Shown: positions 32,564 to 39,659 of the stretch, one piece after another
Layout: every line of letters begins with the position of its first letter
Numbering within the stretch: position 1 is the stretch's first letter
Assembly: GCA_016873195.1 (NCBI GenBank)
Contig: VGXW01000006.1
Coordinates: 1-42,597, forward strand
Source: Planctomycetota bacterium
GTDB taxonomy: Bacteria > Planctomycetota > UBA1135 > UBA2386
Reading direction: 5' to 3'
Length of the DNA: 42,597 nucleotides
The notes under the pieces: generated by a model
The model's database searches: none
What the model was told of the DNA's origin: nothing
The model's input: only the letters and a program-made list of their open reading frames with translations
Translations under genes and position numbers: made by a program

Positions 32564-32750
32564 GGGAGGCGGAGGCGCCGTGCGCTGCGGCCGCGATCTG
32601 CCCGGGCCGCGCGCGGATCGGGCCCGGCTCGAGCCCCGTGCGAGCATCTTCGGGACGCGCTGCCACCCTGGCCGGCACGAATCACCGCCATCGCGCCCCA
32701 GCCGGACCGACTATCATGGCGCGACCTTCTCCCGCACCCCTGGAGCCACC

Positions 32751-34790
32751 ATGCGAATCTGCGCCGCCCCGTTCCTCACCGCGCTCCTTCTCACCGCCAC
32801 CGCCACCGCCCAGGCCGGCTGGCTCGGCCTGAACCCCGCCATCCGTCCGCCCGCGCGCGCCATGGCGGGCCTCGCCGCGATGACCCTGCAGAACAAGTGC
32901 GTGCTGTTCGGCGGCGAGGTCACCGAGAACGGCGCCACGCTCAACGACACCTGGACCTGGGACGGCTCCGCCTGGAGCCAGCTCGCGATCCCGGGCCCGC
33001 CGGCGCTCGAGGGCTTCGTGATGGAGTACGACCCGGTCCGCGACCGCGTCGTGCTGTTCTCGGGCTGGAACGGCGCCCAGTACCCGCAGCAGACCTGGGA
33101 GTTCGACGGCGCCGCCTGGGCGCTGCGCACGCCCGCGCTGAGCCCGCGCGGCCGCGACTGGTCGGCCGCCGCCTACGACCCCGTGCGCGGCAACCTCGTG
33201 CTCTTCGGCGGCCACGATTGGTCGGTCGCCGGCACCACGCTCGCCGACACCTGGACCTGGAACGGCACGAACTGGACCAGCCAGACCGCCAGCGGCCCGG
33301 CGGCCCGCCAGGGCCACGCCATGGCGTTCGACCCGGTGCGCAACACGGTCATCCTGTTCGGCGGCACCGGCGCCGGCAACGACATGTGGGAGTGGAACGG
33401 CACCGCCTGGTCGCCGATCGCTCCTGCCACCGTGCCGCCGCCGCGCGTCTGGCATCGTCTGGTCGCCGACCCCGCGCAGAACCGCGTGTTGATGATCGGC
33501 GGCCTCTGGGGCACCGCGAAGCTCGACGACGTCTGGCAGTGGAACGGCATCGACTGGCAGCAACTCACCACGATCGGCACGCGGCCGCGCGGCGGCTACC
33601 TCGCCTGCGCGACGCGCGACCCGGTCACGGGTGCCGTGCTGCACTTCGGCGGCAGCGTGATCGCCGCCCCGCAGCGGGTGCTCTCCGACGACGCCACGAA
33701 ACTGCTCGTCGCCAACGCGACGGGCTGGGCCGTCGAGGAGGAGTACGGCACGGGCTGCGGTGCGGCCGCCGACTACGCGTCCTACTACGAGCAGTTCGCG
33801 GCCGGCACCTTCGACCTCGGCGGTGCCTCCGGCACGGAGAACGTGGTCGTCAACACGTTCGTCGGCAACGGCTACCTCGTGGTGCCCGGCGTGTCCGCCT
33901 GGCGCGCGCCGCAGACGCCCGACCTCGCGCTCGGCGACGATGCCGTGTCGGGGCCGCTGTCGCTCGGTTTCCCGCTCGTGTTGCCCAACTCCGTGGTGAC
34001 GCAGCAGGTGTGGGTCTGCTCGAACGGCTACGTCTGGTTGACGGCGACCGGCGCGGCGGACTTCTCGCCGACCGTCGCCGAGTTCCTGGCCCAGGGCGCG
34101 CGCCTCGCGCTCTACTGGACCGACCTGCGGCCGGTGGCCGGCGGCGGCAGCGGCACGATCCACTTCGACACCGACCCTGCGAACGGCATGGCCTACGTGA
34201 CGTTCGTCGGCGTGGCCGCCTACTCGGGCGGCAGCACGATCGACGTGCAGCTCGCGATCTCCGCCAACGGCAACCTCGAGGTCCGCTACGGTGCCGAGAC
34301 GATGCGCACGAGCACGCAGGCCGCGCTGGTCGGCCTCACCCCGGGCAACGGTGCGCTCGACCCCGGTGGCACCGACCTCAGCCTGATCGGCACCACGCCG
34401 ATCCTGACGAAGCCCGATCTGTTCCGGCGCGACCTCGCGCTGTCGTCCGGGCGGCCGGTGCTCGGCAGCACGGCGAACCTCGTGACGAGCAACATCCCGG
34501 CGGGCAGCCTCCTGAACGCGTTGCTGTTCGGGCTGCTGCGGATCGACCCGGGCATCAGCCTGGCTCCGATCGGCATGCCGGGGTGCTTCCAGTACGGCTC
34601 GCAGGACGCGTCGGTGCTGTTCGTGGGGCCCGGCACCTTGGCGACCTTCCCGTTCGCGATCCCCGCGGGGCCGGCGTTGGCGGGCGTGTCGATCAAGGTG
34701 CAGGGCGCGGTCTACGACCCCGCCGGCGGCCACAACACGCTGGGCGCCCTGGCCAGCAACGGCGTCGAGCTGAAGCTCGACAGCAACTGA
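32751..34790 (+). CDS. Secreted Kelch-repeat-like protein with C-terminal beta-sandwich-like domain
   Basis: Signal peptide MRICAAPFLTALLLTATATAQ. Repeats DPVRDRVVLFSGWN..TWEFDG, DPVRGNLVLFGGHD..DTWTWNG, DPVRNTVILFGGTG..DMWEWNG. Confidence 0.85.
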   Translation: MRICAAPFLTALLLTATATAQAGWLGLNPAIRPPARAMAGLAAMTLQNKCVLFGGEVTENGATLNDTWTWDGSAWSQLAIPGPPALEGFVMEYDPVRDRVVLFSGWNGAQYPQQTWEFDGAAWALRTPALSPRGRDWSAAAYDPVRGNLVLFGGHDWSVAGTTLADTWTWNGTNWTSQTASGPAARQGHAMAFDPVRNTVILFGGTGAGNDMWEWNGTAWSPIAPATVPPPRVWHRLVADPAQNRVLMIGGLWGTAKLDDVWQWNGIDWQQLTTIGTRPRGGYLACATRDPVTGAVLHFGGSVIAAPQRVLSDDATKLLVANATGWAVEEEYGTGCGAAADYASYYEQFAAGTFDLGGASGTENVVVNTFVGNGYLVVPGVSAWRAPQTPDLALGDDAVSGPLSLGFPLVLPNSVVTQQVWVCSNGYVWLTATGAADFSPTVAEFLAQGARLALYWTDLRPVAGGGSGTIHFDTDPANGMAYVTFVGVAAYSGGSTIDVQLAISANGNLEVRYGAETMRTSTQAALVGLTPGNGALDPGGTDLSLIGTTPILTKPDLFRRDLALSSGRPVLGSTANLVTSNIPAGSLLNALLFGLLRIDPGISLAPIGMPGCFQYGSQDASVLFVGPGTLATFPFAIPAGPALAGVSIKVQGAVYDPAGGHNTLGALASNGVELKLDSN

Positions 34791-35130: not shown

Positions 35131-35370
35131 GGCGCAGACGCGACGCCGTGCCGTGGCCGGGCGCGTGCGATCCGCAGGTCAGCAGACCGTCGCCAGCCGC
35201 GACCGAGGCGGATGGCGCGGGCGGGCAGGCTGCACCGGTGTCGGATGGAATGGAGACGGGTTGCCCGGGCAGGCTGTTGCCAAGTGCTGACCCGACCCAC
35301 CCCACTTGGGCGTATCGACGGGGTGGCTCGAAGGTGTTCTCCTTCTTGCGGCCCTTTTCGGGAGGAACCG

Positions 35371-38300
35371 ATGCGACCTGCTTCTCTTCGGCTGCGCGGT
35401 GCCACGCGGCACGGCGTTCGCGTCTGTCTGTCTGTCTGTCTGTAGCGGGCTTCTCGGGTAGCGCAGCAGCCCAGCAGGTGCCGAATCCGGCGCGGAGCGT
35501 TCACCCCGCCATCGCGGACCCGGCCTCCGGTGCGTTCCGGCAAGGTCCGGCGCCGAAGTTCGCCTACATCGATGGCCAATGGAACCACGGGGAGGGCTTC
35601 GCTCAGGGCACGGGCGACCCCGACTACGGTGGCTGGTTCTTCCACGACGACGGGAGGAACGTCACCAGCGCCGACGTCCATCTCACGGTGAGCAGTTGGC
35701 AGGACTATGTCTACCGGAACGAGGTGCACCTGCAGGCCAACAACCGCCTGGTCGACCGCCTGCAGGGCTACCTGCGGCCGGCAGGTCTGGCCCTGCCGCG
35801 GGAGCACCCGCGCTACGGCGCCCTGAGCTTCGATTACGTCGACACCGGCGCCTTCGAGATCTTCCGGCCGCAAGGAGTGCCGTACGCCAACCAGAAGGTC
35901 CTGATCGTGATCCAGTGCTGGGGGTCGAGCGTGTTCCCGAGGGTCTACGTTGGCCAGGATCCGAACAACACAGCCAGAGCCATGTTCGTGGACAGCCTCT
36001 ACTGGTGGAACACCTACTTCGGCTACTTCAGCCCGGACGGGCTCGTGCGAGGCGAGTTCGGGAGCACGGATCCGACCACGATCGGGTCCTCAGCCGCCCC
36101 AGGAACTCCGCTGGCGAAAACCCTCTTCCAACAGAACACCGCTGACGACAAGGTCCTGCGTGACCAGCCCCACGCCGTCGCGACTTGGTCCAACACGCCG
36201 TACCAGACGCTGTACTATCCGATCTCCGCCTACCCCGTGCTCAGCGTGATGCACCGGCAGACAGAACTGAACGAGCAGCGCTACCTGCAGCTCGCGCAGG
36301 CGATCAAGTGCCTGCTGCAGGAGAGCACGTTCCGCAACCCGCTGGGTGCCGCGAATGCTCTCACAGCCCAGCAGGTCGAGGACCGGGTCGTCGTGGTGTT
36401 CGCCGGCGGCAGCAACGGTGGGCTGCAGGCCTCGTTCGCGACGCTGCGGCACCCCGAGATCGTGCACGGCTGCTACGCGCAGGTGATCAGCTCTGGCATG
36501 CAGCGGCTCTACGGCGACCAGGATCTCGGTTGGGCCTACAGCGAACTCAGCGTGGCGACAACCCCCGGCGCGATGGTCGGGCCTGGCGACTTCCTCGACT
36601 GGAACCATTATGCATGGGGGCAGGGCCGGGAGATCTACGATCTCTCCGTCCTCCGCCGCTTCTTCCGCGGCGAGACCTACCGCCCGACCTGCTTCTACGT
36701 CAGCGACGAGGACATCACGTCGACGGGCACGGACTGGGTCCGCGTGGCGAACGGCGGGTCCGGCGCTTCGGGCACCTGGGTGCCGTATGGGGAGCGACAG
36801 AGCACGTCGACTTTCGGCAACCCAAGCTACAACACGCTCGCCTGGCTCGTGGGCGACAAGGCGGGCCACGGTTACGGCTGGGCGAAGAACCCCTACAACC
36901 AGCAACCGACGCTGTTGCTGGACGACATCGTCCACGACGTCGCGTACCGGGCGGTGAACCAGCGGATCTGGCAGGGCTCGACGCCGGTTCCGGGTCCCGG
37001 ACCGAAGTTGGGATCCGGCGTCGACGAACCACACGAGTGGTTCTTCGGCCGGGCAACCCCCGTCCCACTGCCAGCTCCCCAACCAAACGACCCGCTGGTG
37101 CGCGACGACTCCTTCATGGCGACCAGCCAGCCGGGGAACGCGGGAACGCACCTGGGCAGCGAGGAGGCGATGCTGGTGCGGGACGGGCGCGTCTACGTGG
37201 GCAGCGCCGAAGGGCTTGTCACGAGCTTCGTCGTGGACGACCTGGATCCGCGCCGACCACTGGTCGTGTCCCGGCCGAGTGGCCTCCAGGGTGCGCAGAG
37301 CGTGCAGCTCGGCAGTCGCGCTTTCGCGCTGGCGGCGTTGCCGCAGGGAGGTAGCTGGTCGCTCCTCGTCGGCACGCGGCGACACCTCTACAAGCTCGAT
37401 CCGGTGTCGCTCGCCGTCCAGCAACAGGTATCGTTGCCGTGGGAGGTCGCACAGCCGCGGGGGATGAAGGTCGGCGACGTCCTGCCCGGTCACGGCGGGC
37501 CCGAGGTGGTGTTCCGCACCGTGCACGGTGGGCTCGTCTTCTACGGCGTCAACCTGACGCCACTGTTCGAGTGGCCGGAACCGGGCATCGACGACTTCGT
37601 GCTGCAGGGACCGATCGTGACGATCCAGTCGAGCCGGCGCGGGGTCCTGGCGAACGTGGTGTTCGACAGCAACAACCACGCGTCGCTGACTGCCGCGTCG
37701 AAGCCGCTCCAGACGGGGCCGTACGATCCTCCCTGCCAAGGCACGCCATGTGACCTCGAGTTGATGCTGTTGAACCTCGGTGGGTACGTGTATCCGGGGG
37801 TCGTGACCCTGACGCACCAGGACACCGACGGCGTCGCGGTGCGCGCCTACACACCGGACCAACTGCTGCGATTCCCGTTGCAGACAACGGACAATCTGGG
37901 CGGGTACCCGATCGACATTGCAACGTGTCGCGAAGGATATCCGCCGCAACAGCAAGGCGACCAGATCATCGGCGAGCACCTGCTGGTGCTGACGCATGAT
38001 CGATTGCGGCTATTCAACCAGGGCGGCCAACCGCTCGCAGAGATGAACATCACGGAGTCGTGGTCGCAGGCGAATGACGACCGCTACTACCCGTTCACGT
38101 ACCAACCATGCGCCATCGCCGTGGGCGACTTGGTCGACAACCCGGGGGGCACCTATCCCGACGAGGTGGTGATCGCCACGGCAGCGGGCCACCTCGTGTG
38201 GCTGCACGTTGACGAGGTCCTGGCGTGCGCTTCGACCAACGGCAAACTGCCGCCCGCGTGCGAGGTGGTTCTGGCGTCGAAGGGCGGTGTGAGAACCGAC

Positions 38301-39659
38301 GTGCAACCGCGCACGAACCAGGCGCTCTCCGCGACCTGGCCGATCGCAGCGTTCGAGAACGTCCCGGAGCAGGCCGACGAATTGCACCTCTGCGACCAGA
38401 GCGGCGCATACTGGAAGGTTGGGCCCTCGGGTACCCTGCAGATGTGGGATTGCGACGGGAGGGCTGTGGGACTGCGCGGATGGGCGCAGTATGGAACGGT
38501 GTCTCGCTTCGGTTATGGCTTCCCGTCGGAGTACGCTCAGGCATTCAACTTCCCGAGCAATGCCACCTTGCGGGCCTGGGTTACGCCACCATGGTGTCCG
38601 GTCCGAGAGTATCTAGCCGTCTATCAGGATATCAACATCAATCCCTTCAATTGGTATCCCGGCCAATCCCTCTTCGGAACCTACCACGGCATGTTCATGT
38701 TCCGGTATGGGGGTTGCCTGCTTGGCAGCGGCGCAAAGACCGAGGCTTGGTTCTGGTCGGATAACACGGGCAGAAGCCCTCGCTTGCCCGGCAGCAACAC
38801 GACCCTGGAGATGGGGCCCTGGGCGAACCACGTGACCGGCTTGAGGATCGAGGACGCAACTGGCGTGATTGACGGCGTGTGGGAATCGACCGGAAGTCCT
38901 GGGACGACCAACTCGGCCGGCTTGGGGAGCGGCACTCCGTACCACAATCTCCGGAACAACTCCAACGAGGTGTCTTCGATCACCCATCAGGGCTGCGTTG
39001 CCGTCAAGGTGGGGGAGTCGAATCATCAGGAAACGCTGGTGGTGCTCGGTTGCCCAGGCGGCCGAGTGCGTGTGATCGAGCCGGGTTCGAACTCCTGGAG
39101 CACCGGCGGGCTGAACATCCACCAGCTCGGCACCGTGTACAGCGCATCGCAGGATCTCGGGTTTGGCGGCGCGGCGTTGGCGGCACGGGCCGACACCGCC
39201 AACCCCAACCAGGTGACGATCTGGTTCGGCACGCTCTACGACCCTGTGGCACACCCGCAGCAGTACTCGACACCGTACGGGATCCTGGGGAACTCCGAAC
39301 TCGCGGTCGGCGCGGTGCACAAGTACACCTACACCAAGGGAGGGGCGTTCAGCAGTCCACAGACCTTCCCGCTCGCTCCCAGCGCGACGCATCCACGGGG
39401 CGCGTACGGGGTCGTCGGGATGCTGCTGACGAATCTGCTGCCGCAGTCTCCAGTCGATGTGGACGAGCTGATCGTGGCGACGATGTCCGGCGATCTGATC
39501 GTATTCAATGCCGACACCATGCAGGAGATCTGGCGCACCCACGTGTGGGGATCGATTGGATTCTACAACTCGATGGTGGCGGCTGACCTGGACAACGACA
39601 ACAAGAAGGAACTGTACGTCGCGGGCTCGCGCGGCGTGTGGCGATTCGTGCGACCATAA
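35371..39659 (+). CDS. Large secreted serine-hydrolase-like/beta-propeller protein; authentic start appears out of frame in this sequence (phase-variable candidate)
   Basis: SD GGGAGGA then ATG 35371. The ATG frame ends TAG 35443-35445 just after (GTCT)n; the large ORF continues in frame 0 to 39659. GGSNGG nucleophile-elbow-like motif; VAADLDNDNKKELYVAG FG-GAP-like end. Confidence 0.75.
35422..35443 (+). repeat. Tetranucleotide repeat (GTCT)5 + GT
   Basis: gtctgtctgtctgtctgtctgt, directly followed by ag to form TAG. Confidence 0.97.

Follow-up and report, generated by a model that had tools for sequence, protein, structure and literature searches.

Repeat-driven phase variation has been described mainly for host-associated pathogens and commensals. 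In the opa genes of Neisseria, a (CTCTT)n repeat in the leader-peptide coding sequence sets the reading frame, and several loci per genome switch independently (PMC3745409). In Helicobacter pylori, CT repeats in the 5' signal-peptide region of oipA, and likewise of sabA, change the frame through slipped-strand mispairing (PMC10564699, PMC2715451). The contingency loci of Haemophilus influenzae use tetranucleotide units in the 5' coding region, which shift the frame (PMC2651432). The locus described here lies in a 42,597-nucleotide stretch of planctomycete DNA (the window) and carries a (GTCT)n tract at the start of a hydrolase gene. It is very probably a translational phase-variation (contingency) locus. 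With opa, the window locus shares a signal-peptide repeat that sets the frame of an exported protein; with the Haemophilus loci, it shares the 4-bp unit and the 5' coding location. The latter, in a host-restricted pathogen, mostly concern LPS genes and have longer tracts. The CT unit of oipA recurs in most of the planctomycete members found. In contrast to opa, the window locus has a different unit, belongs to a free-living planctomycete and concerns large secreted enzymes instead of outer-membrane adhesins; the likeness, known here from sequence alone, is drawn with no claim of homology. The GTCT unit also distinguishes it from oipA and sabA, to which both the proteins and the phylum are unrelated. 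The mechanism would thus be of a known kind, with no new mechanism proposed, and the setting in free-living Planctomycetota would be new; no report of phase variation or repeat switches of such kind in Planctomycetes was found in the open-access literature searched.

The 5' end of the hydrolase gene combines an SD-like motif, an ATG, the tract and the remainder of a signal peptide (Table 1). The repeat lies within the signal-peptide coding region, as judged by eye and by simple rules (n-region, core and AxA-type site), and the perfect (GTCT)5.5 tract begins 48 nt past ATG 35371. Read from this ATG, the frame encodes MRPASLRLRGATRHGVRVCLSVCL and then terminates at the tract end, and the 1,404-codon frame is in a different phase; the hydrolase gene is OFF as assembled, the assembly being a MAG consensus. 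Because the ATG frame and the ORF are in different phases, they are joined by a net gain of one unit or a loss of two units. Since the third frame is closed as well, either wrong phase terminates at once, within five codons of the tract. The unit number, judged by sequence, would decide whether ATG 35371 is joined to the ORF. An earlier note on this DNA had picked the same ATG, with GGGAGGA, as the best start, placed a TAG directly after (GTCT)5.5 with the large ORF in another frame, and predicted that +1 unit or −2 units restores the frame into QVPN and on to 39659. The coordinates and frames bear out each of these points. Its proposal that the repeat both sets the frame and encodes the h-region also agrees with the tract, which reads as a V-C-L-S cycle in all three phases. 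Neither a sigma-70-like promoter nor an intrinsic terminator was found near the hydrolase gene start, and planctomycete promoters may differ.

Table 1. Features of the (GTCT)n locus and of the encoded protein (window coordinates)
Feature	Position	Strand	Basis or remark
Whole open frame, mechanical listing	35148–39659	+	portion before 35422 without support as coding
Shine-Dalgarno-like GGGAGGA	35360–35366	+	4 nt ahead of ATG 35371; read from sequence
ATG and basic n-region of signal peptide, MRPASLRLRGATRHGVR	35371–35421	+	same position as in-frame ATG of repeat-free L003 and L004
(GTCT)5.5 tract	35422–35443	+	100% match; proposed slippage site; codes for VCLS-repeating h-region
TAG terminating the ATG frame, assembled (OFF) state	35443–35445	+	straddles tract end
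Remaining signal peptide in ORF frame, AGFSGSAAAQ	35445–35474	+	AAAQ/QVPN cleavage region; QVPNP aligned to mature start of L003 and L004
TAG shutting the third frame	35459–35461	+	5 codons past tract
Alpha/beta-hydrolase-like domain	35475–37085	+	weak Pfam Peptidase_S9 match; conserved residues; structure model
Candidate nucleophile Ser (GGSNGG)	36411–36413	+	residue conservation
Candidate acid, in DED	36705–36713	+	residue conservation
Candidate His	36867–36869	+	residue conservation
C-terminal beta-propeller region, probably two propellers	37086–39656	+	weak FG-GAP repeat at end

A start elsewhere in the ORF frame, which the earlier note had set against its own reading, would make the protein constitutive and the repeat irrelevant to the frame. 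The frame does extend upstream of the tract without a stop for 298 nt and offers an ATG at 35250 and a GTG at 35334. However, all nine ATG, GTG, TTG and CTG codons that precede 35445 in the ORF frame lack an SD-like motif, and starts of this kind would add N-terminal extensions of 30–100 residues. The repeat-free orthologues (L003 and L004; genomes G017 and G023) begin at an SD-ATG that matches ATG 35371 and lies in frame, 25–30 residues ahead of the conserved QVPN. The ATGs of the orthologues are preceded by AAGGAG or GGAG motifs equivalent to GGGAGGA, and in several relatives (L005, L007 and L021) a stop interrupts the ORF frame upstream, at the tract or near it. Translation from another start is very improbable.

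The predicted product consists of an N-terminal hydrolase-like region followed by beta-propellers. The N-terminal region bears a weak resemblance to S9 prolyl oligopeptidase-type and other alpha/beta-hydrolase folds. The Peptidase family S9 profile (PF00326) scores 18.8 bits, under the curated cut-off of 22.6, and the GGSNGG, DED and His residues are invariant among 10 homologues. A model of the hydrolase region with moderate confidence (pLDDT 66) matched S9 and PETase-type folds with E values of 1e-6 to 1e-5; only the fold class is claimed, because the Foldseek TM-scores are low over the full length. The GxSxGG motif, the candidate Asp and His residues and the fold-level similarity would be shared with S9 prolyl oligopeptidase-like alpha/beta-hydrolases, but the usual S9 order is reversed here, with the hydrolase N-terminal and the propellers C-terminal. 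The gene has homologues in 17 of 101 related genomes, all members of the same family, and the six close homologues are full-length or nearly so and 42–53% identical. The homologue records that carry names are MAGs of Planctomycetota recovered from lakes, groundwater and samples of wastewater type. The homologue in G029 (C103, L006) combines an SD-ATG with an ORF that lacks a repeat and is interrupted by two in-frame TGA codons, through decay, assembly error or another cause. Immediately upstream of the hydrolase gene, the window contains an ORF for a Kelch beta-propeller protein (32580–34787, + strand). Near the window start, imperfect 15/45-bp in-frame repeats (90–236) encode a Lys/Pro/Ala/Glu-rich sequence.

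The (GTCT)5.5 tract is a non-triplet tandem repeat of unusual length, exceeding chance expectation. In the 1.23 Mb of its own genome surveyed (22% of the genome, 73% GC), no other tetranucleotide tract containing A or T is as long: it spans 22 bp and the next 15 bp, and five Markov shuffles gave a maximum of 16 bp. Repeats are nearly missing elsewhere in the surveyed part, and the 18-mer GTCTx4.5 has no further exact match in the 34 genomes of the family. The tract is short relative to many proven contingency loci, and as a hydrophobic core VCLS is weaker than LSLSLS plus AALS. The genome of the window encodes MutS; in known systems, mismatch repair damps dinucleotide slippage more than tetranucleotide slippage.

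Orthologues of the hydrolase gene carry other repeats at the same site. The tract is (GCCTGCT)3.3 in G027, (GGAA)4.8 in G032, (TC)15.5 in G030 and (TC)17.5 in G013, all out of phase with the ATG. Three paralogues in G008 carry (TC)13.5 and (CT)18, both out of phase, and (TC)23.5, which is in phase. Six of the seven repeat-bearing orthologues are thus out of phase with their ATG. It is difficult to account for independent 2-, 4- and 7-bp repeats at one site of one gene family unless a tract able to slip serves a purpose there. Programmed ribosomal frameshifting or transcriptional slippage, by which the protein would be made from a fixed tract length, would fit the frequency of out-of-phase states. 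Nevertheless, units that need different shifts share the site, in-phase members exist, both off-frames contain early stops, and a conserved slippery heptamer or stem-loop was not seen by eye; an origin of the protein by such recoding is extremely unlikely.

In G030, a (TC)7.5 copy on contig C133 was considered as an ON copy of the OFF gene on C216 and was rejected, as it matches only the first 56 residues past the tract and is unrelated thereafter. C133 (L176:9888–11498) and C216 (L177) share a duplicated 227-bp 5' module of the window-type gene (SD, ATG, (TC)n and first codons), which in C133 now runs into unrelated sequence. The duplicated module may be a relict fragment or raw material for switch swapping between genes.

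A phase tally of the 33 repeat genes with a clear SD-ATG gave seven in frame and 26 out of frame (binomial P(≤7) = 0.095 at an in-frame expectation of 1/3), the effective number being below 33 because several members are paralogues. The tally omits G030:C133 as a relict, G013:C145 for lack of an SD-ATG and G339:C19 because its two candidate ATGs differ in phase. These counts are compatible with random phase and incompatible with fixed in-frame tracts. In 73% of 30 repeat genes, both wrong frames meet a stop no more than 20 codons from the tract, compared with 7% of random positions within the same ORFs and 3% of 67 repeat-free genes of secreted-like type (Fisher p 4e-13). The secreted-gene control, chosen by simple rules, may include false ORFs, which makes the within-gene control more trustworthy. 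In several members, codons such as CTG AGT GAY past the tract provide both stops.

A further explanation is that the gene is simply broken, by a fixed frameshift or by an assembly or consensus error at a repeat that does not switch. The window derives from a single MAG, errors would fall at the repeat, and the assembled state is out of frame. Against this, 1,404 codons are open, with 46–53% identity to relatives and the catalytic residues kept, and the 22-bp tract is shorter than a typical read. Moreover, this site is occupied in independent MAGs by other repeats that are likewise out of phase, and errors would not put differing repeats at one site. Selection on OFF copies elsewhere also argues against breakage. 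Two pairs, each with both copies OFF as assembled, gave dN/dS values of 0.20 (G004 C78/C102) and 0.27 (G008 C8/C46), by which these OFF paralogues are under purifying selection. The G004 pair had been considered as strain haplotypes, but the two are paralogues with 81% identity. The comparison of the window gene with G027 gave 0.43, near saturation. The long conserved ORF and the dN/dS of 0.20–0.27 between related OFF copies indicate that the window's gene is kept functional by selection and is no pseudogene, and a broken gene is quite improbable.

Copies from relatives differ in unit number. Two near-identical copies in G385 carry (CT)16.5 in the OFF state (C10) and (CT)19 in the ON state (C24), and a 16-bp difference at the tract is their sole internal indel in about 930 aligned bases. 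A (GGAA)6.8 copy in G018, ON, and a (GGAA)5.5 copy in G004, OFF, are 89% identical over the 247 bp available. In these comparisons, the repeat number alters faster than its surroundings and alters the state. The unit number, which the earlier note proposed to compare in related strains, thus differs between copies from relatives (G385, G004/G018 and G008); for the window's species itself, no further strain was found. The anatomy and out-of-phase state of the window locus, the same-site repeats in orthologues, the near-random phase, the purifying selection and the turnover in number and state among relatives together support the reading of the earlier note that a phase-variable locus was caught OFF.

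In the proposed phase-variation mechanism, slipped-strand mispairing at (GTCT)n would gain or lose 4-bp units, presumably at an appreciable rate within the population. One phase in three would link ATG 35371 to the 1,404-codon frame. This ON phase would yield an alpha/beta-hydrolase/beta-propeller protein, probably exported, whose signal-peptide core is supplied by the repeat. In the other two phases, a TAG within five codons would leave only a peptide of roughly 24–30 residues; the assembled majority state is OFF. Switching a costly, exposed protein may bring a bet-hedging gain.

Similar tracts occur elsewhere in the family and the phylum. Tracts of (TC)9 are present in 17 of the 34 family genomes, many of them directly after the SD-ATG of large secreted ORFs, which include penicillin amidases (two in G010), galactose-oxidase-like proteins (two in G004) and a subtilase (G023). 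The pattern GGAG-ATG-(TC)9 was matched in 10 of 395 Planctomycetota genomes, versus none for the reversed control pattern; the encoded LSLSLS cores lead into long ORFs, and dockerin or DUF7948 domains occur in some of these. A second class consists of (GGAA)n tracts, which are sited in n-regions and encode charged GRKE; three further tracts of this unit (L262, L265 and L266) were left out of the count because they could not be placed with confidence at gene starts. The unit swap of the window's gene family is repeated in a second secreted family (FHVYVDP..GDN; 33–35% identity between members; L260, L261, L263, L195, L187 and L188), possibly a beta-helix, in which G015 and G046 have (TC)n, and G013 and G022 have (GGAA)n. 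The view of the earlier note that such loci are unexpected in this kind of genome does not stand, since signal peptides with (TC)n or (GGAA)n tracts are met repeatedly in the family and the phylum.

The repeats could also have a neutral origin, in which selection for a Leu/Ser/Val-rich core promotes low-complexity DNA and switching is without adaptive value. (CT)n gives LSLSLS, a usable core, in every frame, and slippage would then be a by-product. This reading does not fit the (GGAA)n tracts, which encode no core, or the strong enrichment of early stops in both wrong frames. The near absence of repeats elsewhere in the window's genome and their concentration on large secreted proteins also speak against it, and a purely neutral origin is unlikely.

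Some (CT)n tracts in the family lie in a different context. Of 48 distinct (CT)≥7 tracts, eight are directly preceded by TTGA (TTGACT, −35-like), versus about 0.2 expected (L032, L041, L045, L068, L069, L156, L157 and L166, from genomes G028, G002, G021 and G022). In five of these eight, the last T and the five following bases read TAnnnT, compared with 3 of 28 other tracts. This arrangement suggests that (CT)n in promoter spacers is a second, transcriptional kind of phase variation. In G010:C201 (L076:5746–5889), (TTCC)7.8, shorter GTCT- and GGCT-type repeats and (TC)19 cluster in the roughly 150 bp that precede an ORF for a small exported protein.

Taken more broadly, the data lean somewhat towards a dispersed, repeatedly re-invented phasome in free-living Planctomycetota. 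Many giant secreted enzymes and surface proteins would be switched by signal-peptide repeats ((TC)n, (GGAA)n, GTCT and a 7-mer), with stops in both wrong frames to ensure a clean OFF state, and (CT)n between the TTGACT and TAnnnT promoter boxes would tune other genes. Unrelated repeats would replace each other in orthologues while the switch stays, so that switchability itself would be selected.

The comparative signature of same site, differing repeats, random phase, both wrong-frame stops and a conserved ORF is found in uncultured planctomycetes from lakes, groundwater and wastewater, where it concerns giant secreted hydrolases. The opa/oipA-like kind of switch appears to be widespread in this environmental phylum. 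Assembly leaves most such genes out of frame, with their start and signal peptide lost, and annotation pipelines would have a reason not to call them pseudogenes. With swapped repeat units in orthologues, selection on switchability itself becomes directly testable. If the switching is true, it would represent bet-hedging of extracellular enzymes in free-living bacteria, in the form of a cheater/producer polymorphism or in response to phage or grazer exposure.
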